A stretch of DNA of 64,000 bases from NCBI GenBank assembly GCA_003168335.1, contig PMSM01000013.1:62001-126000 (forward strand). The letters run 5' to 3'. A model generated the notes under the pieces. It had not been told where the DNA came from. It did no database searches and saw only the letters and a list, made by a program, of their open reading frames with translations. Source of the stretch: Blastocatellia bacterium (GTDB lineage Bacteria > Acidobacteriota > Blastocatellia > Pyrinomonadales > Pyrinomonadaceae). Positions within the stretch are counted from its first letter, which is position 1; every line of letters begins with the position of its first letter. Shown piece after piece: positions 9,543 to 25,400 of the stretch. The position numbers and the translations under genes were made by a program.

Positions 9543-9751
9543 ATGACCTTCTGCGGCCTGGAGGTCATGCCGGAGCGAAGGAAAGACTTGACCCCTGGTG
9601 GCAAATCTTTCCTGAGAAAGGCTTGCCTTATCCGTCGCGCTGGCGTTAACATGCAGCCGTCTAAAAAAGGTTCATTCATATAGCGGGATCGGCCCCGTGG
9701 CTTTATCTGTAACCTTCATTCGAAGAGCTTAGTGAACGCCGGAGGTTAATA

Positions 9752-9961: not shown

Positions 9962-10089
9962 AAGGGGCTGCAAGTATCACTGCGCGAATCGGGATGATTG
10001 CTTGCAACAGATTTGTAGAAACCAGCACTGCTGATCGCCGGCATGAGCTTCGCGGCCGAGCACCAGCGATGAAGGGGTTACAAAGCGAC

Positions 10090-10138
10090 GCCGTTTGCGT
10101 CTGCGGCCATTCGCCCACGCAAACGGCCGTTTTTGTTT
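10090..10138 (+). terminator. Rho-independent terminator
   Basis: Perfect 11-bp stem GCCGTTTGCGT (10090-10100) with ACGCAAACGGC (10117-10127), a 16-nt loop, then CGTTTTTGTTT. It ends transcription of the small membrane protein gene, or of a short RNA from the 130 bp between the two. Confidence 0.85.
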
Positions 10139-10213
10139 CAGTCCTGGTCTACCCTTCGTGAGTTTGTTTGCAGCGGACTTTCCAAGACTGACTTTCCGAG
10201 GAGTAATTAAGTA

Positions 10214-10576
10214 ATGTTGCCAACCTTAGCGCTACTGTTCATGCAAACCGAAATGAGCGCGAAGCAACCCAGCTACTTTGCCGTGGTGCTGGTAGGAACT
10301 CTCGTGGCGGGCGGCATCGGCTGGCTTATTGCCGCAGTGCTCGGATTTGCCCGCGCAAGGGCCTTTGGCGCTTCGGCGCGATGGTTTAGCATGGCCGCCG
10401 TGTGTCTGCTGATCTATCATATCCAGTTCCTATTGCTGGGATTCCTCGCAGTCCTGGGCGCCCAACAAAATGACTTCGATTCGGTGCTGTCCTTTGGCGC
10501 GTTCTTGAACGTCTTTGTGGTGCTGGGCGCCATTTGCTCCATCATGGGCTTTGTGCGGCTAACTAACCCGCGCTAA
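10214..10576 (+). CDS. Small integral membrane protein, unknown function
   Basis: 120 residues with three predicted membrane helices (about 23-47, 58-82, 92-114) separated by short loops; the middle loop has Arg-rich FARARAFGASARW. The ATG is preceded by GAGGAG. No family recognised. It lies between a terminator upstream and, 31 bp downstream, the glycoside hydrolase gene on the same strand, with which it may be cotranscribed. Confidence 0.7.
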   Translation: MLPTLALLFMQTEMSAKQPSYFAVVLVGTLVAGGIGWLIAAVLGFARARAFGASARWFSMAAVCLLIYHIQFLLLGFLAVLGAQQNDFDSVLSFGAFLNVFVVLGAICSIMGFVRLTNPR

Positions 10577-10607
10577 GCGGTTAATCAGACTTTCCATTTC
10601 GCTGTTC

Positions 10608-12401
10608 ATGTCCAGGAAACAATTGCTTTTCGCCGCGTTCGCATTGATTGCGGGCGCGGCAGTTTTGTTTGCAATTTCGAACTGGCGCGGCGCCGGAGGC
10701 CGTGGTCGTCCCGCGTTCGTTCAGACTGACGGCCCGCGTTTGGTGATCGACGGAAAGCCGTTTCGTTTCGTGGGCGCGAACGCGGCTTTGATGTATCGGG
10801 ATGATGATCGCGCGCGCATGCCTGAGACTTTGCGCCAAGCGGCCCGGGTAGGAATAAAGGTAGTGCGCGTGTGGGCCTCGGGTGAAGGCGGACCCAACGA
10901 CGTCAAGCCGATCGCCGACTTCAACGATTGGCCCCGCACCCATTCGTTTCGATCCGCACCCGACAAATGGAACGAAGCAGAGTTGATCTTTCTCGATCGA
11001 GTGCTGGTCGAAGCCGCGCGCAATGGACTGCGCGTGCAATTGTGTCTGGCGAACTGGTGGCGGGACACCGGCGGCGTGACGCAGTATTTGCGCTGGGCGG
11101 GCATTGCCGGGGCCGACGACGATAAGTATCCATTCGGCATCAACAATGAAAAGGCGATGCAGTTCTATTCGAACGAGACCGCCCGCCGTCTTTATCGCGA
11201 GCACGTCGAGAAGATTGCCACCCGGCGCAATAGCGTCAATGGAATTCTATACCGCGACGATCCGACAATCTTTGGTTACGAGCTGATGAATGAAGCGCAA
11301 TGTTTGACCGGACGTTGGGCCGAGCGCAGGGCGTGGATGGCCGAGATGAGTGGCTATTTGAAATCGCTGGACCCGGATCATTTGATCGCACCGGGCGAAT
11401 GGGGCTATCGCTCAGCCGCCGAGCGACGCGAATGGCTGATCGATCACGCCTTGCCCAATATAGACTTTTGCGATGTGCACAATTATCCGCGTGACGACAC
11501 AGACAGTTTTGTCGATTCGCCCAAAGCGCTCGGCGAATTCATCGAGAATCGCGTCGCCGCGGCGTACTCAATCAAGAAGCCCCTGGTGCTTGGCGAGTTC
11601 GGTATGTCGAGCGATGGTTATAAGGGCTCCACCCAGGTCGAATGGTATCGCGCGTATTTTGAAAACGCGGTCCAAGCCGGCACGAGCGGCGCAATGTTCT
11701 GGATACTCACCCCCGATCCCGCGCGAGGTTACGGCGTGACTTATTCTTCGCCGCGCGATGCGGGTGTGCTGGCAGAGGTTACCGGTGCTTCCCATTTGTT
11801 TGCTTCGCTCGCCAATGCTGCGCCGCCGCCGACTTTGCTCGAATCGGGACATTTGATACCGCGACAGTTTGCTTTTGCCCAGGCAGAAAACGATCGCGCA
11901 GTGCAACCTCACCTCACTTTTAGACAGAATGGGACGATCCTGTATCGCTTCTCGCCCAACACGGTCGTGCGCGGACGGTTTGAAAAACTCGGCGGGGGCG
12001 ACGGCTATGTTTGGGGAGCGGGCGCTGGTTACTTTGAATACATTATTCCAGGTCGCACTGACCACCGCCGGGTCGGGCAAATCGTGGTGCGGGCCCACCT
12101 CCAACCGGTGTTGCCGGTGGACGCAAAGCCCTCGTGGACTCAAACGCGCGTCACGCTGTTCGTGAATGGAACCGATTGCGGCTCGCGTCTAATTCCAGTG
12201 GAAGATCCGAAAGCACCTTTGATTCAGGAATGGAAGATCGATGCGTGGTCGGTGCGTCTGCGCGCCGCGCGTGGGTTGCCGTTTGTGATTCGCTTTGCGG
12301 TCACGCCCGAATCGGATTGGCTTTATGGCGTGAACATCTCGAACTGGCCGCTTGGTTACGAGTCACACGACGCCGCGCCGGTAGAGGTTGAGATCGACTG
12401 A
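10608..12401 (+). CDS. GH5-like glycoside hydrolase (mannanase/cellulase clan)
   Basis: 597 residues. An N-terminal hydrophobic helix (6-24) is an export signal or membrane anchor. Residues 40-400 form a GH-A clan TIM barrel: FRFVGANAALM at 53-62, VVRVWASGEGG at 85-95, the acid/base glutamate E229 in GYELMNEAQ, and the nucleophile E330 in PLVLGEFGMS. The order and spacing fit GH5-type beta-mannanases. The last 170 residues are beta-rich and may bind carbohydrate (VRGRFEKLGGGDGYVWG). The likely role is hydrolysis of a plant or microbial beta-1,4-linked glycan outside the cytoplasm; the substrate cannot be decided from sequence. Confidence 0.8.
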   Translation: MSRKQLLFAAFALIAGAAVLFAISNWRGAGGRGRPAFVQTDGPRLVIDGKPFRFVGANAALMYRDDDRARMPETLRQAARVGIKVVRVWASGEGGPNDVKPIADFNDWPRTHSFRSAPDKWNEAELIFLDRVLVEAARNGLRVQLCLANWWRDTGGVTQYLRWAGIAGADDDKYPFGINNEKAMQFYSNETARRLYREHVEKIATRRNSVNGILYRDDPTIFGYELMNEAQCLTGRWAERRAWMAEMSGYLKSLDPDHLIAPGEWGYRSAAERREWLIDHALPNIDFCDVHNYPRDDTDSFVDSPKALGEFIENRVAAAYSIKKPLVLGEFGMSSDGYKGSTQVEWYRAYFENAVQAGTSGAMFWILTPDPARGYGVTYSSPRDAGVLAEVTGASHLFASLANAAPPPTLLESGHLIPRQFAFAQAENDRAVQPHLTFRQNGTILYRFSPNTVVRGRFEKLGGGDGYVWGAGAGYFEYIIPGRTDHRRVGQIVVRAHLQPVLPVDAKPSWTQTRVTLFVNGTDCGSRLIPVEDPKAPLIQEWKIDAWSVRLRAARGLPFVIRFAVTPESDWLYGVNISNWPLGYESHDAAPVEVEID

Positions 12402-12468
12402 TTCAATTGGTGTGAGTACTGGTGACGCGGCAATGACTTCAAGCGAACTGCGCTGCGAGTGATGAGCG

Positions 12469-13347
12469 CTACTTAACATCGGCTTCATTTCCGAGTTTCG
12501 TGCATCGCTTGAGATCACAAACGTCACACATCTCGTAGAAACACATTTCACTCTTGCCGTCCCATCCGCCAAAGTCCATCGCATAGCTGTTCAACCTGCC
12601 AAATGAAATGTCCTGATGAGCGTACAGGTTTCTAGTACCGCCTGGATTCGTGCGCCTCGTCTTCACGCTGAAGCTGTCTTTCTTTGCGCCGTCGGTTTTG
12701 AAGTAGAGCCGGGTCTTGTCGATATCCAGGTTAACGGTGATTGTCTTCCCGGCCGCCAGCAAAGACGATACTTCAAACCTGTAGCTCGGCTTATCTCGAC
12801 CGGATTGTTCAGTGAGGAAGAGTTGCGACGTTGGTCCGTCCTGATTGGCGGTAAGCGAGAGACCTAAGCCGTTCGCAGCAATGCTCATCGTCTGAACCTG
12901 GCCCGATGTTAGCGGGACGCTGCGAAAGCCGACGACAAAACCGGGCCCGGTCATGCTGAGATCGACATCTACTTTGGCCGCTGATTTACCAACGATCGTA
13001 ACTTTGTAAGGCCGGCCGGATTTGTCGAAGGGTAGGACGTACGTCGCAGAATTCTCCTGGGTAATCGCTCTGGCGTTGGGGATTTCGTTGACAAACTTCC
13101 GGCGGTTGAAATCGAAGCCGATGCGCTTTCCATCAGAGTCTTCAATGAGGACCTCGGCATCCACATTCAGAGAGATCTGGACGGCCTTTGCCGCCGCTGC
13201 CCGTTGAGTTGTATTTGGCGCCTGTAACTGCACTTCAGGAGTGGGCCCAGCGCAGGTGAGCGGCGCCATCGTAGCAGTTGGTAAATTCGCCAGCCACAAA
13301 CCAGCCGTCACTACCAACAAACCTGATGAGAGACGCAGCATTAGCAT
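12469..13347 (-). CDS. Secreted stand-alone copy of the island's C-terminal beta domain
   Basis: 292 residues with an N-terminal signal (MLMLRLSSGLLVVTAGLWLA). Residues about 60-285 align along their length with the last 240 residues of the two larger proteins at 13391-15214 and 18892-20715: DSDGKRIGFDFNRRKFVNEI, GPGFVVGFRSV, SLTANQDGPTSQLFLT, DIDKTRLYFKTDGAKKDSF, and WDGKSEMCF. It lacks their Cys-His domain and ends with four clustered cysteines (CFYEMCDVCDLKRC). The gene is 43 bp after its larger paralog on the same strand, so likely cotranscribed. Function unknown; it may be a binding or inhibitor partner. Confidence 0.75.
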   Translation of the reverse strand: MLMLRLSSGLLVVTAGLWLANLPTATMAPLTCAGPTPEVQLQAPNTTQRAAAAKAVQISLNVDAEVLIEDSDGKRIGFDFNRRKFVNEIPNARAITQENSATYVLPFDKSGRPYKVTIVGKSAAKVDVDLSMTGPGFVVGFRSVPLTSGQVQTMSIAANGLGLSLTANQDGPTSQLFLTEQSGRDKPSYRFEVSSLLAAGKTITVNLDIDKTRLYFKTDGAKKDSFSVKTRRTNPGGTRNLYAHQDISFGRLNSYAMDFGGWDGKSEMCFYEMCDVCDLKRCTKLGNEADVK

Positions 13348-13390
13348 CGCGCCTTATGGGGCCCGAAATGACCGCGCTAGCCGGCCGGAG

Positions 13391-15214
13391 CTAGTACCAC
13401 AACAACGCGGTGATTGGCTGGTGAGGTTGAAAGTAATTTCTCGCCTCAGCCGGCTTCTTTGCCGGCTTCTCGTTTGGCTCTTCAGTGCAGGGATCGTCGT
13501 CGAAGCCGTTGCCCTCATCGTCATCCTCGAAACACATTTCGCCCTTGCCGTCCCATTTGCTGAAGTCCATTTCGTAATTGTCAGTCTTCTTGGCTATCTC
13601 AAGGTCATGATGCTCGTATGAACTCGTGGTGCCGTCCGGATTGACACGGGTCACTCGGACATCATAAGCGTCCCTCTTCGCGTCGTTATCTTTGAAGAAC
13701 AACTTTTGCTTTTCCAGATCGAGTTTCATGGTGACGGTCTTGCCCGGGCTGAGTTTAATGCCGCCGATTTCAAAGAAGTAACTCGGATCCTTGCGACCGG
13801 TGGCAATCGTGATGAAGATCTTCGGGGTTTGACCGTCCTGACTGGCGGTGAAGGAAAGTTCGCGGCCATTCGGGCTGATGGTCATGGTTAGGTTCTCGCC
13901 CGGATCGACGAGAATGTCCTGAAAGCCCACAACGAATCCGGGACCCTCCATGTCCAGATCGGCGTCGACTTCGTGGTCTATGGATTTGCCGGCGACGTTG
14001 ATGGTGTAAGGCTTGCTCGACTGAATGTGTGGCAGGTGATATTCAGGAGGTATGTTCTTGCCCATCCCGCCTTCGATTGGCACGACGTCGGCATCGGGAA
14101 TCTCATTCACAAAACGGTTCTTGGCGAAATCGTAGCCGATGCGCTTACCGTTTGGATCGGTAATCAGATATTCGCCTTCGCCATCGAGGGCAAACCCAAC
14201 CTGATCTTTTTTCGGTTTCTTGACTGCTGATACATGATGCAACGCGGCGCGTTCGCTGCTATCCGAACAAAACGGACAGCCGTACACGGGCAGTTCCCGG
14301 GCTGCCTGGCTCTTTAGGCCGAGCGTTTGGCTGGTGGCATCTCCGATATAATCACTGGCAGTCTTGGTTGGATCCGCGGCGGTGTGATAGCGCCAGGTCT
14401 CTTCTTTCGTGTCGAATATGACAACCTTGGTCGCGTCGCCGGGATAATTACTATCATAAACATACAGGTGATAGATTCCTTCGCCCATGTCTTCGACCGC
14501 ATACGGAGAGATGGCATGTCCGCGCGTATAGCGGCCGTCTTCGCGCATGCCGATACTGAGTACGTAGTGGTCTTTGCTGTCATCCTTCATCGAATCGATC
14601 AGCATGTGAAGTATTACGGAAGGCTTCATCTTCCAGGTTTCGGCTCTGAAAGCCGAGATCTCTGAGAGTTTCTGCAACACATGATAGTGGGCGACATAGT
14701 TCGAGATGGCGGCCGTGTGTTCGAGATCGGAAACCTTATGCGCGCCTGATTGCCAGTCCGTTAGAGCAGTCTTGCCGTCGAACGGCAACCCTTGCCACAG
14801 CCGTAAGCTGGTGACCGCCAATCCCTCACAGTGCCCGCCTTCCAGGAGCTTAACCGCTTCCGCCAGCCATTCTTGGGCAGGTTCATTCAGGACGCAGTCG
14901 CTGGCCGTGGTGCCGGACTCGCAGACATTCTCGGCCCCAAAGATCGTCACAAGGTTACCGGCATTCAGATCATTTTCATTGTCATGGTCGCGGCCATAAT
15001 TCCGAAAGCCGTAGCCGTACACTGTCGGATCATATTCCTTGAGCTGAGCGACAATCGTACCTTTCTCGCCCTGAACTTGAGCCACCGAATTGGTCCGTCG
15101 GACATGGGGATTGGACTTCGCGGTCGATCGTGGAACCAGGACCAGGCCGATGGCGATAGCGGTCAGCGCAAATAAGTAAAGTGACGACTTGAAAATAGTT
15201 AGATGGCGTTTCAT
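13391..15214 (-). CDS. Secreted papain-fold-like protein with Cys-His-Asp/Asn signature, paralog A
   Basis: 607 residues. An N-terminal signal or anchor (8-30) is followed by a domain with conserved GGHCEGLAV (C129), GHAISPYAVE (H233) and YDSNYPG (D254/N256). This order and spacing are what a papain, C39 or transglutaminase-like cysteine peptidase would show. C98 and C107 may form a disulfide, and CPFC at 313-316 is a metal-binding or redox pair. The C-terminal 240 residues are the beta domain shared with the smaller neighbour, ending in an acidic loop (CFEDDDEGNGFDDDPC) that could bind calcium. Cysteine protease activity is inferred from motif order only. No family name was recognised. Confidence 0.75.
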   Translation of the reverse strand: MKRHLTIFKSSLYLFALTAIAIGLVLVPRSTAKSNPHVRRTNSVAQVQGEKGTIVAQLKEYDPTVYGYGFRNYGRDHDNENDLNAGNLVTIFGAENVCESGTTASDCVLNEPAQEWLAEAVKLLEGGHCEGLAVTSLRLWQGLPFDGKTALTDWQSGAHKVSDLEHTAAISNYVAHYHVLQKLSEISAFRAETWKMKPSVILHMLIDSMKDDSKDHYVLSIGMREDGRYTRGHAISPYAVEDMGEGIYHLYVYDSNYPGDATKVVIFDTKEETWRYHTAADPTKTASDYIGDATSQTLGLKSQAARELPVYGCPFCSDSSERAALHHVSAVKKPKKDQVGFALDGEGEYLITDPNGKRIGYDFAKNRFVNEIPDADVVPIEGGMGKNIPPEYHLPHIQSSKPYTINVAGKSIDHEVDADLDMEGPGFVVGFQDILVDPGENLTMTISPNGRELSFTASQDGQTPKIFITIATGRKDPSYFFEIGGIKLSPGKTVTMKLDLEKQKLFFKDNDAKRDAYDVRVTRVNPDGTTSSYEHHDLEIAKKTDNYEMDFSKWDGKGEMCFEDDDEGNGFDDDPCTEEPNEKPAKKPAEARNYFQPHQPITALLWY

Positions 15215-15277
15215 TTTCGACTCCGTAGGGTGAACCGACGACTTCTGGAGATCTTAAGGATCCTTTTCGTGAAGGAC

Positions 15278-15304
15278 GGTATATCCCATTAACCCTGTTG
15301 TCAA
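15278..15304 (-). promoter_or_regulatory. Candidate sigma70-type promoter, leftward
   Basis: Minus-strand TTGACA (15299-15304), 15-bp spacer, TATACC (15278-15283), about 64 bp before the ATG of the minus-strand peptidase-like gene. The spacer is shorter than ideal. Confidence 0.4.
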
Positions 15305-15328
15305 CGAAGGACTTCCCGGAAAACTCTC

Positions 15329-15357
15329 TTGACTTTTGTTGTCTGGAAACTTAGTTT
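15329..15357 (+). promoter_or_regulatory. Candidate sigma70-type promoter, rightward
   Basis: TTGACT (15329-15334), 17-bp spacer, TAGTTT (15352-15357), 70 bp before the ATG at 15427. With the leftward candidate it makes a divergent control region of 212 bp between the two arms of the secreted island. Confidence 0.5.
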
Positions 15358-15426
15358 CTCAGTGCATCAACACCGCAACGGGCATTCAAGTAATTAATCG
15401 ACGAATATTCTCAATAGGAGCAGACA

Positions 15427-16260
15427 ATGAATAAACGACTACCCACAAAGGCTCTTAACGCCATCCTGTTAACCGCAGCATTAGTTTTCTGTCTGGTTCC
15501 AGCACAGAAAACGATTGTCTTCGCACAACAGGCCGGGTCGAAGGAAAGCTTGACCCCGACCTTCTGGCAGAGGGATCCAGATGCCGACTTTGAGGATGAG
15601 GGAAGGATGCATTGTGCACCGACGTCGGTTTCGGATGGACTCATTTATTTGTCCAGGGCATTCGGCCTGAAGGACCTGGTCCCAGGCACAGAGCAGAAGA
15701 AAGACCAGATCAAACTTATCCAGGAACTCGCCGACGAATTTAGTACTGATCCCAGCATCGGCGGTACCAACCCGGACAAAGTTTTGACTGGGCTACAAAG
15801 CTATGTGAAGTCCAAAGGCTATGAGTTGAGCCGTCTGGAGATTATGACCTGGCGTTCCGTTAGCGAATCAAACAAGCAATTCAAGACCGGTACAAAGCCT
15901 GACATGTCCTGGATGCGCAGTGCCGCGAACAGCAAAGACACCGTCGTGGTATTCAACTTCGGCTGGTACCACAAGACGGACGACGGTTACACCCGAAAAG
16001 GCGGCCACTGGGTTGCCGTGGTGGGCGCCTCCGGCAATGGGTTCACCGTTCACAATCCGATTCTACCGTCTGAACAGCAGTCGGAAAAGAAGTCCTTGAC
16101 ACTCACCCTGTTGGATGAGGACTTCATAGTGGTCAAGGACTCGGGCGAAGCTAACATGAAAGGCTTTTATGACGGCGAAGGCCCTGGCCTGCCTCGTCGT
16201 GATGCCGTCGAAGCAGCGATTTTGGATGCGGTGATCGTTTTCAGTCTGAAGAAACAATGA
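15427..16260 (+). CDS. Secreted C39-like cysteine peptidase-fold protein
   Basis: 277 residues with signal peptide (cleavage near VFAQQA, 31-36). A C39/papain-like arrangement is visible: Q48 in FWQRD as possible oxyanion residue, C63 in MHCAPTS, H194 in GGHWVAVVG, and N210 in VHNP. This fits the peptidase C39-like family, whose members are either peptidases or inactive binding folds. There is no ABC domain, so it is not a bacteriocin exporter. An AGGAG precedes the ATG and a good promoter lies 70 bp upstream. First gene of the rightward arm of the island. Confidence 0.78.
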   Translation: MNKRLPTKALNAILLTAALVFCLVPAQKTIVFAQQAGSKESLTPTFWQRDPDADFEDEGRMHCAPTSVSDGLIYLSRAFGLKDLVPGTEQKKDQIKLIQELADEFSTDPSIGGTNPDKVLTGLQSYVKSKGYELSRLEIMTWRSVSESNKQFKTGTKPDMSWMRSAANSKDTVVVFNFGWYHKTDDGYTRKGGHWVAVVGASGNGFTVHNPILPSEQQSEKKSLTLTLLDEDFIVVKDSGEANMKGFYDGEGPGLPRRDAVEAAILDAVIVFSLKKQ

Positions 16261-16408
16261 TCGCAGCCCCAGATGCGCTGCGGTGCAGATCTGCGGCGCT
16301 GATGTATTTTCGATAGATGCCTACCGAAGCGTCCAAGGATCGCCTCTTTGGGCAGTTCTACTTTTCATTCGCAAGCGTACCGGTGATTGCACCGGGGAAG
16401 GGAAAATA

Positions 16409-16993
16409 ATGAAGTTACCTCGTTTCGTCTGGTTGTTTGTTTTGATTTCTGTCTCGGGACTTATTTCTTTCGTTCAGGCGAAAGGGCAAGTCTGGTCGCT
16501 AACAACTGAAGCCGTTTCGCCGCTTTTCGCTGCTCAGGAAAACAGCGTAAACAAGGCGAACGAATTGGGAATCCAGTTCGTCGTGCCAGCGGGCTGGCAG
16601 GTCAAGAAGGACCCGAACGGGACCGTAACAGCATCCAAAAAAGACGGCGATGGCTATGTCGTAGTGGCTTTCTCGTCCTTCGCGCCTGACGCCTCTACGC
16701 TTACGCCCGATGCCCTGTTCAAAGCCTTCGCCGAAGGCATTTTTTCGAATGCCAAGAAAGATTTTGGGAATGAATTCAAAACGGGTGAGATAGGCACGGC
16801 CCCCCAAAACGGCGTGACGATGACCATGCAATCATTTTCCGGAAAGCAGGATGGTGCGGACATTAGCGGTGTGGTGATCGTGCTGAACGCCACCAAGCCC
16901 GTCGGTATTTACATGCAAGCCACAACGAAACTTTCCGATAGTCTTGGCAAGGAAAGCGAATTGCTCTTTAAGAGTATCAAGAAACTCGAATAG
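16409..16993 (+). CDS. Secreted DcrB/PsbP-like protein, unknown function
   Basis: 194 residues. The ATG at 16409 was chosen over the longest frame (from 16283) because it follows GGGGAAGGG and opens a signal peptide (MKLPRFVWLFVLISVSG). The mature part starts with GIQFVVPAGWQVKKD, a pattern of the Mog1/PsbP/DcrB fold, and continues as alternating strands and one amphipathic helix. There are no catalytic residues. A protein with the same opening pattern (LSLCVPNGWSVET) is encoded at 29670-30200. It sits 148 bp after the C39-like gene, same strand. Confidence 0.65.
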   Translation: MKLPRFVWLFVLISVSGLISFVQAKGQVWSLTTEAVSPLFAAQENSVNKANELGIQFVVPAGWQVKKDPNGTVTASKKDGDGYVVVAFSSFAPDASTLTPDALFKAFAEGIFSNAKKDFGNEFKTGEIGTAPQNGVTMTMQSFSGKQDGADISGVVIVLNATKPVGIYMQATTKLSDSLGKESELLFKSIKKLE

Positions 16994-17058
16994 GTTTGAC
17001 AGAGTTGCTGTCAGCCACCGCATAACAGATTTTGAGCAATACTTAAGAGGAGTACCCT

Positions 17059-17523
17059 ATGGCTTTCCGACTGACAATGATCGTTGTTTTTTGCATGGCT
17101 TTCTGCGCTCTCGCCTCAGCGCAGGAAGATCGAACTACGATAAATAAGTCGCTGGTACCTGGTGTGGTTGGCCGGAATGCTCAGTTCGTTCAAGTTGGAA
17201 GCGCCTCAGTCCCGCAACCTACTTACATCGGCCAATGGTCCAACGGTCGGGGAGACACGCTGGCTATTACAGCAACCACAATCCGGTTTGCCAATGATAA
17301 ACCTGTGAAATACCGTGACGGGACTAAAGTAACTAACGGCCGCGAGTTCCACTTGGAAATTACTTCCGCAGGCAAGCTCAATTATCTTACGAAGTTTCTT
17401 TCGCTATCCATGGGTGAGGGAGAGAAACCCGATGAGATGAAAATGACCCTTTATGATTCCTATAAAGACATGGTGGATGGGGCGAATTCACAGGGCGAGG
17501 CTACCTGGTATCGGGACAAGTGA
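17059..17523 (+). CDS. Small secreted protein, unknown function
   Basis: 154 residues with a signal peptide (MAFRLTMIVVFCMAFCALAS, AQ). The mature part is beta-rich with QPTYIGQWSNGRGDTLAITA, suggesting a lipocalin-like or small beta-barrel fold, but no family was recognised. AAGAGGAG lies 6 bases before the ATG. It is 65 bp downstream of the PsbP-like gene and probably in the same transcript. Confidence 0.65.
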   Translation: MAFRLTMIVVFCMAFCALASAQEDRTTINKSLVPGVVGRNAQFVQVGSASVPQPTYIGQWSNGRGDTLAITATTIRFANDKPVKYRDGTKVTNGREFHLEITSAGKLNYLTKFLSLSMGEGEKPDEMKMTLYDSYKDMVDGANSQGEATWYRDK

Positions 17524-17665
17524 AGCAAGTCCACCCAGCGCGCAGCCTATCTGAAAAAAACGTCTTAAACTGCTGCTTCCATTTCCAGCCAGGCGCTGTT
17601 CTTGACGGGGCTTTGTTCGCCGATGCTTGACTGCTCACCTCCATCGATGACCGACTACAACTTCG

Positions 17666-17694
17666 TTGACTTTCTTTCTGATAGAGCGTATTTT
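17666..17694 (+). promoter_or_regulatory. Candidate sigma70-type promoter
   Basis: TTGACT (17666-17671), 17-bp spacer, TATTTT (17689-17694), 82 bp before the ATG at 17776. It shares the TTGACT-N17 form with the promoter at 15329. Confidence 0.5.
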
Positions 17695-17775
17695 CGCCTG
17701 CATCAAAACGAGTTCCAGTCAGGAACGCAGGCCTAGCAACGCTTAAAACCTCAAATTGAGTAAGGAGAAACACCT

Positions 17776-18600
17776 ATGCGGAAAACAATGCTCATGTCGA
17801 TGTCGGTGGGGTTGCTCGTAGGTATCGGCTTTTTGAGTTCCTTTATTTCGGCGCGCGCTCAGGCCAGACGCTCGGATGAAGTCACTGTCACTGGGAAATG
17901 GGAGCTGGTCGGAAAAGAGGGAGAATGGAAAAATGCGGTTGAAATGGTAGCGATGGACGGCTTCCTGTGGAGCGTGGAGAAGGATGGGTCGCTTTACAAG
18001 ACCGATCCCGCCACCGGGAAACGCACTCAGGTCGGAGAAAAGGGAGCTTTTGAAAATATTCAAAATCTCGAAGGGATGGATCACCTCCTATGGTCGATTG
18101 AAGCTGGAACTCTCTATAAGAACGATCCCAAGACGGGCAAGTGGGAGATGGCTGGCAAAGAAGGCGAATGGTCCAAGACCATTGATTTCGTGGCGCTGGG
18201 TGGGGTTCTGTATTCGATTGAACCCGATGGCTCGCTCTGGAAAACCGACAAGAACGGGAATAACACCCTGATTGATAAAGGCGACTTCAAGGGCTGCACG
18301 CGTTTGACCGAGATGGGCGGAAAATTGTGGACGATTGAGAACGGCACTCTATACGAAACCGACCCCAACACTCTCAACTGGAAGCAAGCTGGTAAGGAAG
18401 GTGAATTCTCCAAGATCAACGCGATGGAAGGAACTAAAACCTACATCTTCATGATTGACAAGTCCGGAAACCTCTACAAGGTTGACAAGGATGGGACCAA
18501 GACCCTGCTCGGTGACGATTACGGTGAGACCAGGATCTTGACAACCTTGGATGGAAGGTTATGGACGGTTGAGGGAGGCAGCCTCTACAAGACAAATTAG
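17776..18600 (+). CDS. Secreted six-bladed tectonin-like beta-propeller
   Basis: 274 residues with a signal peptide (to about residue 31, SARAQA). The mature protein is six tandem repeats of 35-40 residues with the core L(W/Y)S(I/V)E-x-G-(S/T)-LYKTD, for example FLWSVEKDGSLYKTD and KLWTIENGTLYETD. The first strand (GKWELVGKEGEW) and last repeat (RLWTVEGGSLYKTN) would close the ring. This resembles tectonin and tachylectin propellers, which bind glycans or lipopolysaccharide. AAGGAG precedes the ATG. A paralog that is a lipoprotein lies at 20774-21649. The ligand is unknown. Confidence 0.78.
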   Translation: MRKTMLMSMSVGLLVGIGFLSSFISARAQARRSDEVTVTGKWELVGKEGEWKNAVEMVAMDGFLWSVEKDGSLYKTDPATGKRTQVGEKGAFENIQNLEGMDHLLWSIEAGTLYKNDPKTGKWEMAGKEGEWSKTIDFVALGGVLYSIEPDGSLWKTDKNGNNTLIDKGDFKGCTRLTEMGGKLWTIENGTLYETDPNTLNWKQAGKEGEFSKINAMEGTKTYIFMIDKSGNLYKVDKDGTKTLLGDDYGETRILTTLDGRLWTVEGGSLYKTN

Positions 18601-18891
18601 CAAGTAGAGTCTCAATCTTTCTTCTCGATCTTTAAGACGTCCGTGTCTCGGTGTTGGGCTTTCGCAGCGTGATTCTCACCGAAGAGGCACAGAGATGACG
18701 CGGAGATTAAATCAAACTGCGACAATACGAGTTTAGGTTGGCCGGGGCCACGAGATATCCGGACTCTGGTCAGCATTCTCAATTTCTTTGTCAGCATTGA
18801 TCGAGAGCGAAGCCATTCCAGTTAGCATACGCGGTGGAGCCGGCGCCGACAGGAATCGGATGTCGAGATATCAATGAAGGAGAAACGAACA

Positions 18892-20715
18892 ATGACGCGA
18901 AGTCCGCGGGCACTTATCTGGGCCATCGCAATGCTGCTTGGAGGCGCATTAATGGTTCTGCCTGGGAGTGTCAACTCATCCGCAGGTGTTGGGACGGCGA
19001 ACAGCTCGGCTGCGGCACAAGATAAGGAGCCGGAGGGCAAAATAGTTGCGAAGCTTGATTTCACACCCAAACCAAACGGCTTCCATTTTGAAAACTACGG
19101 GAATGACAGCGAGTCGGCGAATGATCTGGGACCGGCGGACATGATCGACTTGTTCGGCGCTGAGAATGTATGCGAGAGCGGCAGCACCGCTGAGGATTGC
19201 CTACTCTCTGAACCGGCCCAGGCCTGGATGGAAGAGAAGACTAAGGGGATGAATGGTGGGCATTGCGAGGGAATGGCAGTGGCTGCTCTCCGCTTTTTGG
19301 AAGGGAAAGAGTTTAAGGGTAAAGGGAAGCCGAGCAGTTTTCAGGACGGCGCCGAATCGGTTTTCGATCTGAAAAAAGAGGGCGCCGTTAGAAACTACAT
19401 CGCACACTATTTTGTCACTCAGTATCTTGACGAGGTCTCTGGCCCAACTCACGAAATCGCGCAAAAAAGTCCGGCTGAGGTCCTGGATCTTTTGATCAGC
19501 CATCTGCATGACGGCAAGGATGCCGTGGCGCTGGGAATTTATAAGTTCAGCGAGGGCAGGAGAGTCGACGGACATGCCGTCACGCCTTTCGCCGTCGAAG
19601 AAATGGGCGACGACGTGTATCGCGTGCATCTCTACGACAACAACTATCCCGGCGAAACGAAATACCTCACGGTCAATAAGAAGGAGGAAACGTGGACCTA
19701 TCACACCACTACCAAGCCCGGCGAGCCGGAAGCGGAGTATAAAGGCGATGCTAACACTCATACCCTCGAGATAACTGCTGAGTCCTTGCGCGATGCGACG
19801 CCTTTTACTTGTCCGTTTTGCAGCGGCTCCGACTCAAGTTCAGGAGAAAGACACCACGCGGCTCGACCCGCTGCGCCTCGAACTCAGTATGTCGGATTTC
19901 TGATGGATGGAGAGGGCGACATGTTGATTACCGACGAGGCCGGCAAGCGCGTCGGATTCGACTTTAAGAACAGCAAGTTCGTCAATGAAATTGCGGGTTC
20001 GAGGGTCGTATTCGAAAAAGGCGGACTAAACAAGAATATGCCTCCGGAGATAAGCCTGCCGCTCCGCAACTCAAGCAAGCCTTACACCGTAACCCTGTCG
20101 GGCAAGTCGCTGAAACGCGGAGTCGATGCCGACCTGGACCTGGAGGGTCCGGGCTTTGTAGTCGGATTCCGCGACATCATGCTCGATCCGGGCGAGTCGC
20201 TGACGATGAGCGCAACGCCCGACGGGCGAGAGCTCAGCTTCACTGCCAGCAACGATGGCCAGACACCGAACGTCTTCATCACGATCGAATCCGGGAGAAA
20301 GCATCCCACTTACTTTTTTGAAATAGGCGGGATCAAACTCACTCCCGGCAAGACCGTTACCATGAAGCTCGATCTGGAAAAGCAAAAGTTGTTCTTCAAG
20401 GACAACGACGCGAAGCGGGATGCGTACGACGTGCTGGTCACACGTATCAATCCCGACGGCACCAAAAATTTTTACGAGCATCACGATCTTGAGATAGCCA
20501 AGAAGACCGATAGTTACGAGATGGACTTCAGCAAGTGGGACGGTAAGGGCGAGATGTGCTTTGAGGAGGACGAGGAGGGTAACGGCTTCGACGACGACAA
20601 GTGCGTGGAAGAGCCGAACGAAACGAAACCGCCGAAGAAGACAAGTTCGCTTAGAAGTGGCGATGGTCTGTTCAACATCAGCCGATTGGTTCTGCCAATT
20701 GTTTGGTCGCTTTGA
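18892..20715 (+). CDS. Secreted papain-fold-like protein with Cys-His-Asp/Asn signature, paralog B
   Basis: 607 residues and paralog of the protein at 13391-15214. The ATG at 18892 is preferred over the one at 18874 because AAGGAG lies 12 bases before it, as in neighbouring genes. It has a signal sequence (7-32), GGHCEGMAV with C125, GHAVTPFAVE with H228, YDNNYPG with D249, a CPFC pair, and the same C-terminal beta domain and acidic loop (CFEEDEEGNGFDDDKC). The C-terminal halves are more alike than the N-terminal halves, so the shared domain is under stronger constraint. It stands between two tectonin-like propeller genes. Peptidase activity is inferred. Confidence 0.75.
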   Translation: MTRSPRALIWAIAMLLGGALMVLPGSVNSSAGVGTANSSAAAQDKEPEGKIVAKLDFTPKPNGFHFENYGNDSESANDLGPADMIDLFGAENVCESGSTAEDCLLSEPAQAWMEEKTKGMNGGHCEGMAVAALRFLEGKEFKGKGKPSSFQDGAESVFDLKKEGAVRNYIAHYFVTQYLDEVSGPTHEIAQKSPAEVLDLLISHLHDGKDAVALGIYKFSEGRRVDGHAVTPFAVEEMGDDVYRVHLYDNNYPGETKYLTVNKKEETWTYHTTTKPGEPEAEYKGDANTHTLEITAESLRDATPFTCPFCSGSDSSSGERHHAARPAAPRTQYVGFLMDGEGDMLITDEAGKRVGFDFKNSKFVNEIAGSRVVFEKGGLNKNMPPEISLPLRNSSKPYTVTLSGKSLKRGVDADLDLEGPGFVVGFRDIMLDPGESLTMSATPDGRELSFTASNDGQTPNVFITIESGRKHPTYFFEIGGIKLTPGKTVTMKLDLEKQKLFFKDNDAKRDAYDVLVTRINPDGTKNFYEHHDLEIAKKTDSYEMDFSKWDGKGEMCFEEDEEGNGFDDDKCVEEPNETKPPKKTSSLRSGDGLFNISRLVLPIVWSL

Positions 20716-20773
20716 GCGTCCGTTTGAAAGAGAAGCCACGACAAACAACAAAAATCCTAAGGAGAAAAACAAA

Positions 20774-21649
20774 ATGATCAGGAAAGTTATGTTCGCGACT
20801 GCTTTGATTGGACTGATGCTCGCGGTCAGCTCCTGTGGTAGCAAGACTACCGCCCCGGCTGGACCGTCAACAGCAACCAGTCCCGCCAGTACGACCTCAA
20901 CCAGCAGTACCGCCAGTCCACGCGCCGATGTAACGGTAACCGGGAAGTGGGAGCTGGTTGGAAAAGAAGGAGAGTGGAAAGGCACTGTCGATATGGTTGG
21001 AATGGACGGCTTCATCTGGAGCGTGGAATCCGACGGCTCTCTCTTCAAGACCGATCCCGCTACGGGCAACTTCACGCAAGTTGGCGAGAAGGGCTCGTTT
21101 CAGCGTTTGAAGTTGATTGAAGGAATGGACCACATACTCTGGTCGGTTGAAGGCGATACTCTTTATAAGTCCGATCCCGCTACCGGAAAGTGGGAACGAT
21201 CCGGCGAGGGCGGCGGATGGTCGCGCACGATCGACATGGTTGGCCTGAACGGGGTGCTCTATTCGGTTGAACCTGACGGCTCGCTTTGGAAGACCGAAAA
21301 GAACGGCACCGATACGCTGATCGACAAGGGCAGTTTTAAGGGCGTTACCCATTTGACAGAGATGGGCGGAAAACTCTGGACGGTTGAAGAAGGCACTCTC
21401 TACCAAACTGACCCGACGACTCTAAAGTGGTCGCAGGTCGGAAAAGAGGGCGACTTCGCCAACGTTTCCGCGATGGAAGGAGCTGGTACGTTTATTTGGA
21501 TGGTCGACAAAGCCGGCGTCCTATACAAGGTTGATAAGGACGGGACCAAGACCAAGCTTGGCGACGACTACGGCCAGACTACCATTCTGACCACGCTGAA
21601 TGGGAAACTGTGGACCGTCGAGGGCGGCAGCCTCTACAAGACCAATTAA
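20774..21649 (+). CDS. Tectonin-like beta-propeller lipoprotein
   Basis: 291 residues from the ATG at 20774, which follows AAGGAG; the longer frame upstream overlaps the previous gene and is rejected. The N-terminus is a lipoprotein signal (MLAVSSC lipobox, Cys at about 23), followed by a 35-residue Ser/Thr/Pro-rich tether. The rest is a six-repeat propeller closely matching the secreted paralog at 17776-18600 (GKWELVGKEGEW, FIWSVESDGSLFKTD, SVEGDTLYKSD). It therefore displays at the membrane surface what the paralog releases in soluble form. It lies 58 bp after the peptidase-like gene and is probably cotranscribed. Confidence 0.78.
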   Translation: MIRKVMFATALIGLMLAVSSCGSKTTAPAGPSTATSPASTTSTSSTASPRADVTVTGKWELVGKEGEWKGTVDMVGMDGFIWSVESDGSLFKTDPATGNFTQVGEKGSFQRLKLIEGMDHILWSVEGDTLYKSDPATGKWERSGEGGGWSRTIDMVGLNGVLYSVEPDGSLWKTEKNGTDTLIDKGSFKGVTHLTEMGGKLWTVEEGTLYQTDPTTLKWSQVGKEGDFANVSAMEGAGTFIWMVDKAGVLYKVDKDGTKTKLGDDYGQTTILTTLNGKLWTVEGGSLYKTN

Positions 21650-21666
21650 TTCGAGCAAGTTGTTGG

Positions 21667-21727
21667 AAGCTGGAAAATAAGCGGCGGTCCGCACCGATTT
21701 CAGGGGCGCGCTGCTTATTTCCAGCTT
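21667..21727. repeat. Inverted repeat downstream of propeller gene
   Basis: AAGCTGGAAAATAAGC (21667-21682) faces GCTTATTTCCAGCTT (21713-21727): 15 pairs with one bulged A. No T-tract follows, so it is a strong hairpin but not a standard terminator; it may stabilise the 3' end of the transcript. Confidence 0.6.
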
Positions 21728-21835
21728 GATACGGGCGCGCGTTGCGCTCGCGGGGCCTGGCATGCCGCGTCCGGCGCGCCGCCGATTTGCTTGCGCGACA
21801 ATAATTCCGGAAAAGGCCCAGAGAGGAATCAGACT

Positions 21836-22297
21836 GTGAAGAACATCCGAAGCCGGCGACTGATCCTGCTCAGCAGTGCTGCGTTGATCTTCAGTTTCGC
21901 TCAATACTCAAGGGTCCAATGCCAGGTTACCGATCAATTACATACGCCCGCAAAAGGAAGCCCCGAACGCACTGCGATATTGGATGTCTTGCGTGAAGAG
22001 TATAAGAGCGGCCAGGGCATTCACGTTATATTCCAGGTGAATCACCTGAAGGTCCATGATGGATGGGCCTGGGTTACCTGCACGCCGCTTGACGATAGTG
22101 GAAAACCCATCGGTGAACTATGGCCGTCGCTGTTGCACTACGAGAAAGATAAGTGGGTGATCAAGGATTTAGTGGCAATCGCAGAGGCGCTGAATGATCC
22201 GGTGGGTCCGATGGAGCCTAGCCGGAAATATCTCAACGAGGTTCAGAAAAAATATCCGGGCGTTCCGGCTGATATTTTCCCGAAGGCCCGCGGGTGA
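21836..22297 (+). CDS. Small secreted protein, unknown function
   Basis: 153 residues. A GTG start at 21836 is chosen because AGAGAGGAA precedes it and a signal peptide follows (VKNIRSRRLILLSSAALIFS); the frame extends upstream only to a TTG. The mature part has EYKSGQGIHVIFQVNHLKVH and a WPSLLHYEKDKWVIKDLVAI stretch, an alpha+beta pattern like NTF2 or SnoaL-type secreted proteins, but the family is not certain. Last gene of the rightward arm of the secreted island; it converges on the amidohydrolase gene. Confidence 0.6.
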   Translation: MKNIRSRRLILLSSAALIFSFAQYSRVQCQVTDQLHTPAKGSPERTAILDVLREEYKSGQGIHVIFQVNHLKVHDGWAWVTCTPLDDSGKPIGELWPSLLHYEKDKWVIKDLVAIAEALNDPVGPMEPSRKYLNEVQKKYPGVPADIFPKARG

Positions 22298-22363
22298 AAC
22301 TTGATTCGCGGGGTTTTCAGCTTTGACATCGACGATTGCTTAGAGCGACCTCTCCTGCCTACC

Positions 22364-23689
22364 TCAACGGAACCCATAGAGATGCACTGCATTTTCGTGC
22401 AGCACCATCCGCGCCAACTCGAGCGCTCGCTCACGATTGATCTCGCCGTCGTTCATCATTCCCGTCAAAGCCAGCGCCAGCGCCTGGCGAGCGGTAGTAT
22501 TTGAAAGCCAGGCGACTTCACCCCAATCGACTGCCGCACCAAATGAGAAAGCATCAGTGCCGAACAAAACTTTGTCGGGATAGCTTTCCAGCCAGGTGCG
22601 AAGAATGTCACTCAGCTCTCGCGGATAAGTTAAGAAAGTCTGCGCGGAAAAATCTGCATAGACGTTCGGCTTGCTCATCAGCGAGCCCATCTCTTTGGTG
22701 AACGGGTAGCCGCCATGTACGACGACGAAGTTCGTTTGGCGCAAAGTCGGATCATTGAACGCCGCTTCCAACAACAATGGGTCGCTCCCGCTTTGCCGAT
22801 AGAAACCACCCACGCCAGAGATGCAGTGAATGTGTACCGCCATGCCCAGACGGCCCGCCTCCCGCGCGATGTAATAGAAGAGAAAATCCTGCAGCGCTTT
22901 GTAGCCACTGGCCGGAGGTTCGCCGCCGCGCACGAATCGCGCATAAATCGCGCTCGCTCGTGCTTCGTCGGGATCGTCAAAGTCGAGCTTCCGCAAATAA
23001 GCGGCTTCAAACTTAATCGCGACTGCGCCGCCTTTCCTTTGGCGTTCGAGGGTTGGCGTAACGATTCTTCGAAGATAGTCGTCAAGCGACGGCGGCAAGC
23101 CGCGCACACCTAAATCGCCGAGATAACGTTTAAGTAGCAGCTCTTCGCCCGGATAAAACCCGCGATAGTCAGGATTGGATCGCTTCGCGGCTTCGTTGTT
23201 GAGCGGGAAGACTAGCGCGTCGTCAAACGCGACCCAGCGAAAGCGCGGCGCCGTCAGACCTCGACCCATCGCGACTCGGTTGGCGAACATGGTTTCGATG
23301 TTGAGCTGATCCAGAACCCAGGCGGGGAACGCATCGCCACGTTCTTTCAGCACGCTTTGCTTGGCATCCAGCAATTCGCGCACGTGCGCTTCGCTCATGT
23401 CGCGGTAAGCGTAGCCGTAGAGATCATGCCACGCGCGTGTGAATTCCGGATTCGTGGGACTTAGGCGAACAGGCAAAGGGGAAGGCCCGATGGCATCCAG
23501 CGGCAGCGCATCGAACTCGTCGTCAGGCTTCTCGCCCGGAGCGACATATTTCAGCGGATGCGCGTGATTGTCGATGGCTTTGATCTTGAAGATCTCTGCG
23601 AGCAGATCGCGATCGACCGCGGTCTGAGCGCGGACCTTCATCGATCCGGTTGTTAATAGTAAGCACAGTAAGATGACAAACTTTTTCAT
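22364..23689 (-). CDS. Exported amidohydrolase-type metal-dependent hydrolase
   Basis: 441 residues from the ATG at 23689, which begins a signal peptide (MKKFVILLCLLLTTGSMKVR, A). The frame extends 63 codons upstream without signal-like content. The N-terminal metal motif NHAH (H42, H44) and later IHCISGVGG, VVHGGYPF and FGTDAF suit an amidohydrolase-superfamily (amidohydrolase 2) TIM barrel with divalent metal. The substrate is unknown. It lies about 120 bp downstream of the nucleotidase gene on the same strand. Confidence 0.75.
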   Translation of the reverse strand: MKKFVILLCLLLTTGSMKVRAQTAVDRDLLAEIFKIKAIDNHAHPLKYVAPGEKPDDEFDALPLDAIGPSPLPVRLSPTNPEFTRAWHDLYGYAYRDMSEAHVRELLDAKQSVLKERGDAFPAWVLDQLNIETMFANRVAMGRGLTAPRFRWVAFDDALVFPLNNEAAKRSNPDYRGFYPGEELLLKRYLGDLGVRGLPPSLDDYLRRIVTPTLERQRKGGAVAIKFEAAYLRKLDFDDPDEARASAIYARFVRGGEPPASGYKALQDFLFYYIAREAGRLGMAVHIHCISGVGGFYRQSGSDPLLLEAAFNDPTLRQTNFVVVHGGYPFTKEMGSLMSKPNVYADFSAQTFLTYPRELSDILRTWLESYPDKVLFGTDAFSFGAAVDWGEVAWLSNTTARQALALALTGMMNDGEINRERALELARMVLHENAVHLYGFR

Positions 23690-23810
23690 TTCAGGTTGCA
23701 CCTTTAATCTAATAGGTTCAAAAGCCATCCACGGATTTCGCAGATTGCACAGATGATAAGGCCAATCTGGGTAATCTGTAGAGAGATTCGCCGTCGAGGC
23801 TCCGTACCGA

Positions 23811-25400
23811 TCAATTGCACGAACTCTGATCCTTTGCCGTGCCAACGCGCTTGATCCTGCCATCGGTTTGCGGCCCAATCGCCGCGGCAGACGCGATGGC
23901 CTTCAGTAAGATGTCCGTTTCGGACAGGCCTTGTTCGGGACCTGTGACGAGCGGCGCGTTACGGAACATGTCATAGCCGTCGCCCGCGTCGAGAGCCACG
24001 TAACTCGTGGTCGCCAGTGTATACGTGCGCTTGTCGTCGAGCGGTTTTCCATTGATCGTAATGCTCGTGATCCGGGCGCCGGGTTTCCGCCTGGCGTCGT
24101 ACTCAAAGCGCAGGCCCGAGACCTGGGGAAAGCGACCGGGTTGGGCTTCGACTCCGATGCTGGCCACTCCGTGCTCGAACGCCGCGCGAATCACCGCGCC
24201 GGTGAGCTGCATCTTCACCACGCGATTGTTGTAGGGGAGGATCGAAAGTACATCGCGCTTGGTCAGGATGCCCGGCTCGATGATTGTATCGGCGCGAATC
24301 GAACCGCCATTGACCAGCGCGACATCGGCTCCCGCGGCTTGTCTAAAAGCATCGGCGATGAAATCGCCCATGTTTGTTTCCTGAGTGCGCACGTCGGCAC
24401 TTTTGATATTCAACTCAACTTCAGTTCGCCCGACCGTTTGTTCCAGACTCTTCAAAAGCGGCCCGTACTTTTCATTAAGGGGCGCGAAAGCGGCATCGTC
24501 CTTAATCTTGTCGGTCACGGGAATGACTTGCCAGTCGATGCTCTCGAGCTTGCCGGTGGATTTTGAAATGTTGAGATCAATGCGGCCGAGTTCGCGCGCG
24601 TCCGAAGTCATTTTAAAGATCGGCGCATGTCCGGACATCGATTCCAGCAACGTGTGCTCGTGGCCGCCAATGATCAGGTCGACGCCCGAGCAACGCGCCA
24701 ATCGTTTGTCTTCGCCCATCGACAGATGCGTCAGGGCAATGATTACCTGCGCACCGGCCGCGTGAATTTTCGGTATCACGCGCGCAGCGGTAGCGCACGG
24801 ATCGAGGATCTCGACATCCGGCCCGGGCCGCGAAGTTTGTAGAGTCTCCTGCAAGAGTATCCCGAAGATTCCGATCTTTACCCCGTCGAATTCGCGCACG
24901 ACGAACTCCGGAGTGTCGGCAAATAATTTCCCGGTCTTTTTGTCGATCACGTTTGCGGCCAACCACTTGAAATGCGATTCACCCATTCGTTCGCGCAGGA
25001 CGTCAGGCCCGAAGTCAAACTCGTGATTGCCAAAGGTGGCATAATCGAGGCCGCCCGCGTTCCACGCTTCGATCATTTGCTTGCCTTTATAAGTATTCGA
25101 CTCGATCGAAGGCGAGAGAGTATCGCCCGCCAGAAAAAAGAGCGTGTGTGGTGACTCGCTCATAATCTGTTTTCGCAGGGTCAGGACGCGCGCTAATCCG
25201 CCGCGGGCACCGCCATCAACCGGAGCGAACTGATAGACGTCGTTTACCTGCAAGAGCGTCACGCGCACCGGACATTCGCGTTGTTCCTGCGCGGCCGCCG
25301 GCCTGAGTCCTGACATGGCGAGACCGGCCGCCAGGATCACCGTAAGCAGCGCGACAGAGGCGAGCGCAATTCGCCGTGGTGGAACTCGATTAAGAATCAT
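23811..25400 (-). CDS. UshA-type 5'-nucleotidase / 2',3'-cyclic phosphodiesterase
   Basis: 529 residues with signal peptide (cleavage after RPAAAQ). The N-terminal calcineurin-like metallophosphatase has LLQVNDVYQF, GNHEFDFG, LTHLS and GGHEH, the dinuclear metal ligands. The C-terminal half is the 5'-nucleotidase substrate domain (ALVNGGSIRA, LPYNNRVVKMQLTG, and a YDMFRNAPLV stretch). The usual UshA DNHD-type first motif is here VNDVYQF, as in several related phosphoesterases. It likely hydrolyses nucleotides in the periplasm for phosphate or nucleoside salvage. Exact specificity is unclear. Confidence 0.85.
   Translation of the reverse strand: MILNRVPPRRIALASVALLTVILAAGLAMSGLRPAAAQEQRECPVRVTLLQVNDVYQFAPVDGGARGGLARVLTLRKQIMSESPHTLFFLAGDTLSPSIESNTYKGKQMIEAWNAGGLDYATFGNHEFDFGPDVLRERMGESHFKWLAANVIDKKTGKLFADTPEFVVREFDGVKIGIFGILLQETLQTSRPGPDVEILDPCATAARVIPKIHAAGAQVIIALTHLSMGEDKRLARCSGVDLIIGGHEHTLLESMSGHAPIFKMTSDARELGRIDLNISKSTGKLESIDWQVIPVTDKIKDDAAFAPLNEKYGPLLKSLEQTVGRTEVELNIKSADVRTQETNMGDFIADAFRQAAGADVALVNGGSIRADTIIEPGILTKRDVLSILPYNNRVVKMQLTGAVIRAAFEHGVASIGVEAQPGRFPQVSGLRFEYDARRKPGARITSITINGKPLDDKRTYTLATTSYVALDAGDGYDMFRNAPLVTGPEQGLSETDILLKAIASAAAIGPQTDGRIKRVGTAKDQSSCN

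Follow-up and report, generated by a model that had tools for sequence, protein, structure and literature searches.

Staphopains, which we take to be MEROPS family C47, carry their catalytic residues in the order Cys-His-Asn, and streptopain (SpeB) and interpain A are presumably members of MEROPS family C10. These secreted cysteine enzymes are the closest known counterparts of g2 and g7, two exported proteins encoded on contig PMSM01000013.1 of a Blastocatellia bacterium, within the 64,000 nucleotides analysed here (the window; G000:C8:62001-126000 of a 5.16-Mb assembly, G000 denoting the bacterium's own genome). Their genes belong to a row of nine, numbered g1 to g9 from left to right, in an island of about 10 kb. 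As a whole, the island is best explained, at somewhat better than even probability, as two exported sets: the putative papain-like peptidases g2 and g7 together with g1, and a set of propeller proteins, a C39-like protein and g4.

In common with the staphopains, g2 and g7 would have a papain-like core (Z 9.2–9.6 over 143–150 residues of the mature enzymes) and look like secreted cysteine enzymes, but there is no sequence or Pfam match between them. Moreover, g2 and g7 carry an extra C-terminal beta-domain, and g7 has only about 30 mostly low-confidence residues between the signal helix and the catalytic domain and hence no pro-domain of staphopain size. SpeB and interpain A gave the best fold scores for the N-terminal domain alone (Z 9.4 and 9.3 over 174–178 residues), but at 10–11% identity and with no Pfam peptidase match in 57 members of the g2/g7 family. 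Papain proteins (Peptidase_C1) that adjoin a family gene at five loci of Pyrinomonadaceae type (L016, L017, L018, L021 and L049) share the fold class and are apparently secreted, but the hhalign probability of a relationship with the family was 0.1%.

The sequence-only reading of this DNA had left g2 and g7 without a known fold, which structure prediction has now corrected for the N-terminal domain. The full-length g7 model (m97b4d6b1dd39), built from 57 sequences, reached a pLDDT of 87 and a pTM of 0.84. Since the full-length fold search was filled by matches of the C-terminal beta-domain, the N-terminal domain was also modelled alone (mca720885abe5; pLDDT 95.6, pTM 0.92). In the VIA-align comparison with this domain, all 13 rows with a Z of at least 8 were SpeB, staphopain, interpain A or phytochelatin synthase, enzymes that share the papain-like fold. 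The highest scores belonged to SpeB (9.4, 174 residues aligned at 4.0 Å), staphopain B (9.3), interpain A (9.3) and phytochelatin synthase (8.2), followed by the B. fragilis type VI secretion system (T6SS) effector domain BtaeB (7.9), IdeS (7.8), cathepsin B (6.9) and the PCAT1 peptidase/transporter (6.8); the full g7 model matched staphopain C with a Z of 9.6. The leading scores, those of staphopain, SpeB and interpain A, lie within one Z unit and single out no one family of clan CA as the nearest. Cys131 and His234 are each conserved in 72 of 72 family members and Asn257 in 71 of 72, and GHC, Gln183 and Tyr254 are invariant in the family; His234, Gln183, Tyr254 and Asn257 lie outside both patterns with which the family was collected. 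In the g7 model a helix begins at Cys131, His234 lies within a strand and Asn257 follows a strand. Because the match list is consistent, the three residues are conserved and the secondary structure elements occur in this order, the N-terminal domain of g2 and g7 is modelled as a papain-like fold, which would make both proteins members of clan CA. The Cys-His-Asp/Asn motifs noted earlier were found in both proteins as GHCEG, His and Asn.

On this basis g2 and g7 probably act as exported cysteine peptidases, which would cleave extracytoplasmic proteins by means of Cys131, His234 and Asn257, as the modelled fold and the conservation of these residues suggest. Their C-terminal beta-domain could be an address or binding module common to the two proteins, in which it has stayed alike while the catalytic domains would have diverged to different specificities. 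A module without an enzyme, g1 might bind to the partner of this module or hold the enzymes in check, and the propellers would bind something relevant.

The two paralogs are 55% identical over 589 residues, and both have 607 residues, as described before, when g7 is counted from its second Met (18892). Of 396 genomes sampled from the phylum, 5, the own genome among them, gave a match, which in G189 is only a 107-residue remnant. In that genome the family gene appears broken (L008 / L074): an N-terminal piece ends soon after GHCEG, and a piece resembling the C-terminal tail stands in a neighbouring frame. Scanning a species-level genome collection for the N-terminal domain with two search patterns, one of which included GHCEG, yielded 64 loci in 63 genomes (L069 and L072 share a genome). 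By the submitters' titles, the 57 rows of the family tree comprise Chloroflexota (25), Myxococcota (8), Acidobacteriota (7), Cyanobacteriota (4), Pseudomonadota (3), Verrucomicrobiota (3), Actinomycetota (2) and Coprothermobacterota (1), together with four rows without a group, two of which are the window's; by these titles the family spans eight bacterial phyla. Two Rhodococcus plasmids carry distant members (29–30% identity) annotated as hypothetical protein. Aligned with g7 by blastp, 56 of 75 matching open reading frames (ORFs), at 53 of the 64 loci, extended from the catalytic domain past residue 498. Two of the other 19 are C-domain pieces, and the rest end earlier, either at a cut contig or gene or because the second half is too divergent, as in Roseiflexaceae types. 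Alignment A4 contained g2, g7 and 55 locus sequences, with cut-off ORFs and some tandem copies left out; 15 of the left-out ORFs were added to these 57 to form the set of 72 members, 67 of which have a hydrophobic N-terminal segment.

None of the 57 members matched Peptidase C1 (PF00112) or any other Pfam peptidase model at E 0.01, and the 13 families that were matched did not include a peptidase; Pfam presumably holds profiles for the clan CA peptidases C47, C10, C39 and C66. Sequence searches of g2/g7 or the family in Pfam, NCBIfam and PDB gave no usable match. Thus, in the libraries searched no curated model scores above cut-off for the family, its two-domain layout or its free-standing module, while the catalytic fold is already known. 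Our literature searches turned up no matching paper, a statement that extends to those searches only.

The island lies between convergent genes for a GH5-type protein and an amidohydrolase, which in the window are separated by nearly 10 kb. In four of the six other genomes of the genus (G432, G460, G465 and G546) the two genes are direct neighbours: 79–114 bp separate the flanking protein matches, and the alignment of the flank DNA reaches to 3–10 bases from the left end of the island and 8–26 from its right end. The GH5-type gene was matched in all seven genus genomes, own included (in G546 by its last 26 residues only, at a contig end), and the amidohydrolase gene in six, own included, G025 being without it. 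In G459 the same gap is filled by approximately 3.3 kb of other genes. Positions 12402 to 22363 are an accessory island, inserted between two convergent genes with nothing between them in most other genomes of the genus. Since the gap is empty in four genomes, holds the island in the window and other genes in G459, it is a site of variable cargo. The genes in the G459 gap (L136 2127-5312) encode a membrane-type protein of 781 aa and two paired proteins of 113 and 138 aa, which by eye we take to be a candidate antitoxin and PIN-type toxin. Two genes to the left of the island, the window encodes a Matrixin-type (M10) metallopeptidase with an export-type N-terminus (8187-9542). Integration linked to a tRNA was rejected, no tRNA being present within 9000-26000. 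Base composition was likewise rejected as a mark of the island: its GC content of about 0.51–0.55 compares with 0.54–0.60 in the right flank, but the first 6 kb of the window are equally low (0.52–0.54). Border repeats were rejected too, none being evident on inspection by eye without a statistical test.

Among the remaining island proteins, g3 shares the Cys-His-Asn pattern HCAPT, GGHW and HNP (C63, H194 and N210) with C39-like and DUF3335 proteins. The motif was invariant in the four of four relatives aligned, but the scores against the Pfam models of this C39-like / DUF3335 kind (15.1 of 25 and 12.8 of 24 bits) stayed below cut-off; the earlier assignment as C39-like stands by motif order and is not carried by the Pfam models. 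Including the own genome, a C39-like match was obtained in 5 of 147 genomes of the class, although in one case it was weak and covered only part of the protein. The paired propellers g6 and g8 are 72–74% identical and both exceed the DUF6923 cut-off of 27 bits (39.2 and 33.0 bits, respectively), which assigns them, at the level of sequence, to the propeller-type repeat proteins of DUF6923. The Tachylectin/tectonin model (PF14517), in contrast, was below cut-off for g6 (25.6 of 29.8 bits) and not listed for g8. A lipobox-like LAVSSC in g8 agrees with the description of the pair as soluble and lipid-anchored. In the protein search of the own genome, no propeller relative was found beyond g6 and g8 and no member of the g2/g7 family beyond g1, g2 and g7.

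The propeller, C39-like and g4 genes occur together elsewhere in the genus. On contig C33 of G460, a row of genes encodes a lipoprotein propeller like g8, two small exported proteins, the C39-like protein, g4 and a third small exported protein. On one side this row is flanked by S41-type peptidase, ion-channel-like, small and aspartyl-protease-like proteins; beyond its other end stands a cyclase-like protein. These neighbours, all named by eye, are conserved in the own genome at G000:C1:15000-34000. There, they enclose a 179-aa relative (39%) of one of the small G460 proteins and a 98-aa ORF, and no propeller, C39-like or g4 gene is found at this counterpart of the row. In G432 and G465 this place is occupied by a propeller, and the genome is without a C39-like gene; the G465 contig ends just past the propeller gene, and contigs of metagenome-assembled genomes may be misassigned. 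Of the seven genus genomes tested, the own genome and G460 alone gave a C39-like match. The set is thus clustered at another chromosomal site in G460. The simplest reading of these gene orders would be that the propeller, the C39-like gene and g4 form a unit which resides either at the G460-type site or in the island, and we infer movement of the set between sites.

The strongest alternative to the two-set explanation is that the island represents chance cargo of a permissive site, in which exported proteins were assembled without a common task and only g2/g7/g1 and the propeller, C39-like and g4 genes are internally linked. We regard this as quite conceivable, if at somewhat less than an even chance. 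It is in line with the quite different genes in the G459 gap and with whole-genome searches of 50 family-bearing genomes, 14 of the 64 loci lying outside these searches. The C39-like profile matched none of the 50, and the g8 search matched three, one of them at threshold (E 9.8e-4) and none on the contig that carries the family gene. In the positive control the C39-like profile detected 5 of 10 genomes including the own one, G371 weakly and partially. Furthermore, the contigs of L104 (5.9 kb) and L105 (15 kb) contain the C39-like gene but nothing related to the other genes of the island, and g3–g6, g8 and g9 had no relative among the ORFs of the 64 loci (L012–L075) at E 1e-4. In L105 (G063, 4955-6166 and 6661-7479) the C39-like gene adjoins an ORF that by eye resembles a tyrosine recombinase. 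Chance assembly is opposed by the clustering of propeller, C39-like and g4 genes in G460 and again, at a different site, in the window, and by the duplication of both the propeller and the papain-like gene inside one island.

The extra C-terminal domain described earlier is g1, which covers the C-terminal part of g7 only. It is sister to a 300-aa ORF of L012 (100/99), each standing directly after a full-length family gene, so that a free-standing C-module follows a family gene in two genomes, those of the window and of L012. The two halves of g2 and g7 have diverged unequally, with 44.6% identity in the N-domain and 74.1% in the C-domain. This difference (C-N, +0.295) is the largest of 2364 pairs within the 72 members; between genomes it averages -0.145 (sd 0.08, maximum +0.172), the C-domain usually being the less conserved half. 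Along g2 and g7, block identity is 0.31–0.65 before residue 412 and 0.80–0.93 at residues 452–571. The trees of the two halves conflict: in the N-domain tree g2 groups with L012 (100/99) and g2+g7 is rejected (p-AU 0.004), whereas in the C-domain tree g2 groups with g7 (94/97) and g2+L012 is rejected (p-AU 0.022). The C-terminal modules also form an inverted repeat with 5944 nt between its arms. A similar tendency is seen in the tandem pair of L037 (+0.165), while the L022 pairs are mixed. Because the trees conflict and the C-N value is extreme, while tandem pairs elsewhere differ, an exchange of the C-module between g2 and g7 is likely, a conclusion confined to this pair.

Several observations weigh against an exchange or against the role given to the module. 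The tested clades were chosen after the trees had been seen, and the C-domain pairing (94/97) is not starred; in the tandem pairs L050, L051 and L056 the C-domain is, on the contrary, less alike than the N-domain. Fourfold sites are near saturation (identical at 0.46 in C and 0.36 in N, with 0.31 expected), so that any exchange between g2 and g7 would be old. Within the full-length model the C-terminal domain was without a convincing fold match, the best being a TerD homologue with a Z of only 5.2. Near saturation in both halves would also suit a stronger selection on the C-domain without any exchange between the copies. We consider this rather improbable, as the C-domain is the faster half in the family and both copies are less like L012 in this domain (59 and 64%) than like each other.

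Points that speak against peptidases of papain-like fold have to be set beside the fold matches. Foldseek found no match at E 0.001 for either model against PDB, nor against BFVD, and hhalign comparisons of the family with C39-like and C1 alignments gave probabilities of 0.3 and 0.1%, respectively. A Z of 9 to 9.6 at approximately 10–12% identity indicates fold and not function, and the same enzymes also give lower rows (prostaphopain B 7.0, SpeB zymogen 7.3). The conservation beside Cys131 was partly selected, as GHCEG was contained in one search pattern, and papain-like folds include transferases such as phytochelatin synthase. It is possible, but unlikely, that g2 and g7 are papain-fold transferases or amidases, acting in cross-linking or in the processing of peptides or peptidoglycan stems, and not endopeptidases. 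Phytochelatin synthase Alr0975 (Z 8.2) is among the best fold matches, and a family with invariant GHC, Gln183 and Tyr254 that matches no Pfam peptidase model would be compatible with such an activity, but two groups of secreted endopeptidases, the staphopains on the one hand and SpeB with interpain A on the other, score better.

A joint function of all nine proteins at the cell surface, in which propellers bind a surface or polymer and three papain-type enzymes process it, fits the export signals, the single insertion and the presence beside g2/g7 of a propeller, C39-like and g4 set that is missing from its G460-type place, but is very unlikely, since the full set was found in one genome only, C39-like genes and propellers are absent or on other contigs in the 50 family-bearing genomes searched, and gaps of 141–273 bp (g5/g6, g6/g7 and g8/g9) allow separate transcripts. 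Co-occurrence in other genomes had been set beforehand as the refuting test of this function; what was found is the partial cluster in G460, with the full set nowhere else. Anti-phage defence was rejected as well, PADLOC matching none of the nine proteins at E 0.01, and nothing in the island genes was found in favour of glycan processing.

Returning to the two-set explanation, it could be extended to a modular exported peptidase system. The C-terminal beta-module would then be an exchangeable address or inhibitor-binding part that tandem copies keep alike by exchange, with divergence left to their catalytic domains, the free-standing module (g1 and the L012 ORF) a dedicated partner or restraint, and the island would have joined this system to the propeller and C39-like set. 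We offer this extension tentatively and give it a low probability.

All nine reading frames were confirmed at their positions, and in each the N-terminal segment is hydrophobic, with best Kyte-Doolittle means over 12 residues of 2.07 to 3.02, which bears out the description of nine adjacent exported genes. The same crude measure is at least 2.0 in 15 of 34 other tabulated window genes, membrane proteins and one evident false positive included, and a run of nine would arise with a chance of about 0.02 (0.44^9 x 35 positions). The run is unusual and not extreme, exported genes being common in the window. As the flanking GH5-type (10608-12401) and 5'-nucleotidase (23811-25400) genes are also export-type, the nine genes are part of a longer exported run. 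No Pfam or NCBIfam family was above cut-off for g1–g5, g7 and g9; the statement that only C39-like and tectonin-like families could be named holds to this extent, apart from the papain-like model of g2 and g7. The arrangement around a divergent promoter was confirmed with respect to the 212-bp divergent gap between g2 and g3 (15215-15426). A promoter consensus scan placed three promoter-like sites in the region (5.6 expected) and none of these in the gap, for which reason a divergent promoter between g2 and g3 is no more than plausible.

Coordinates of the island, its genes, flanks and inverted repeat in the window (start codons of g4 and g8 picked by eye)
Feature	Position	Strand	Description
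g1	12469..13347	-	exported free-standing copy of the g2/g7 C-terminal beta-domain; 44% identity to g7 329-585
g2	13391..15214	-	607-aa exported protein; predicted papain-like domain (Cys-His-Asn) and C-terminal beta-domain
g3	15427..16260	+	277-aa exported C39-like protein (HCAPT ... GGHW ... HNP)
g4	16409..16993	+	small exported protein, no family named; follows the C39-like gene in G460 too
g5	17059..17523	+	154-aa exported protein; no family, no relative at the loci examined
g6	17776..18600	+	soluble exported propeller-type repeat protein (DUF6923, tectonin-like)
g7	18874..20715	+	613-aa exported protein (607 from Met at 18892); predicted papain-like domain and C-terminal beta-domain
g8	20774..21649	+	lipoprotein-type propeller repeat protein (DUF6923), g6 paralog
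g9	21791..22297	+	small exported protein, no family
Accessory island (insertion)	12402..22363	.	between GH5-type and amidohydrolase genes
Left flank	10608..12401	+	GH5-type (Cellulase) protein, kept across the genus
Right flank	22364..23878	-	Amidohydro_2 protein, kept in most of the genus
Inverted repeat, left arm	13470..14073	.	g2 C-terminal module; 604 nt, 76% complementary to 20018-20621
Inverted repeat, right arm	20018..20621	.	g7 C-terminal module; 604 nt

Further features were observed at the loci of the g2/g7 family. At L017, L018, L021 and L049, and in part at L016, the family gene is preceded by a Peptidase_C1 protein that is apparently secreted; L021 has two of these. A BON-type protein accompanies them in L017, L021 and L049. 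Further upstream, L017, L018, L021 and L049 encode a kinase-type protein with PD40 repeats, and L017, L018 and L049 an extracytoplasmic function (ECF) sigma factor. Ten cassette proteins were assigned by Pfam, six as C1, two as sigma factors and one each as kinase and BON, and the remainder by blastp cluster. Since all these loci fall in one clade, they count as a single case. Tandem arrays of two to five family pieces occur in L022, L037, L050, L051, L056 and L064 (Chloroflexota and one Verrucomicrobia genome). In many members a C-x-F-C motif closes the papain-like domain (alignment A5), and two more Cys are conserved in 54 and 53 of 57 members; L062 is without all four, a pattern that would suit disulphides or a metal site. 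A calcium-loop-like motif (D..GNG..D) at the C-terminal end is clear in several Acidobacteriota but was rejected as a family feature, the pattern being present in 22 of 57 members only.

For the genus, these data define a chromosomal gap with variable cargo. The cargo in the window brings to attention a family present in eight phyla for whose two window members no Pfam or NCBIfam model is accepted, and whose annotated plasmid members are listed as hypothetical. The layout of two domains, the module that also stands alone and the unequal divergence between g2 and g7 lead to directly testable predictions on how bacteria may direct or restrain secreted cysteine enzymes.

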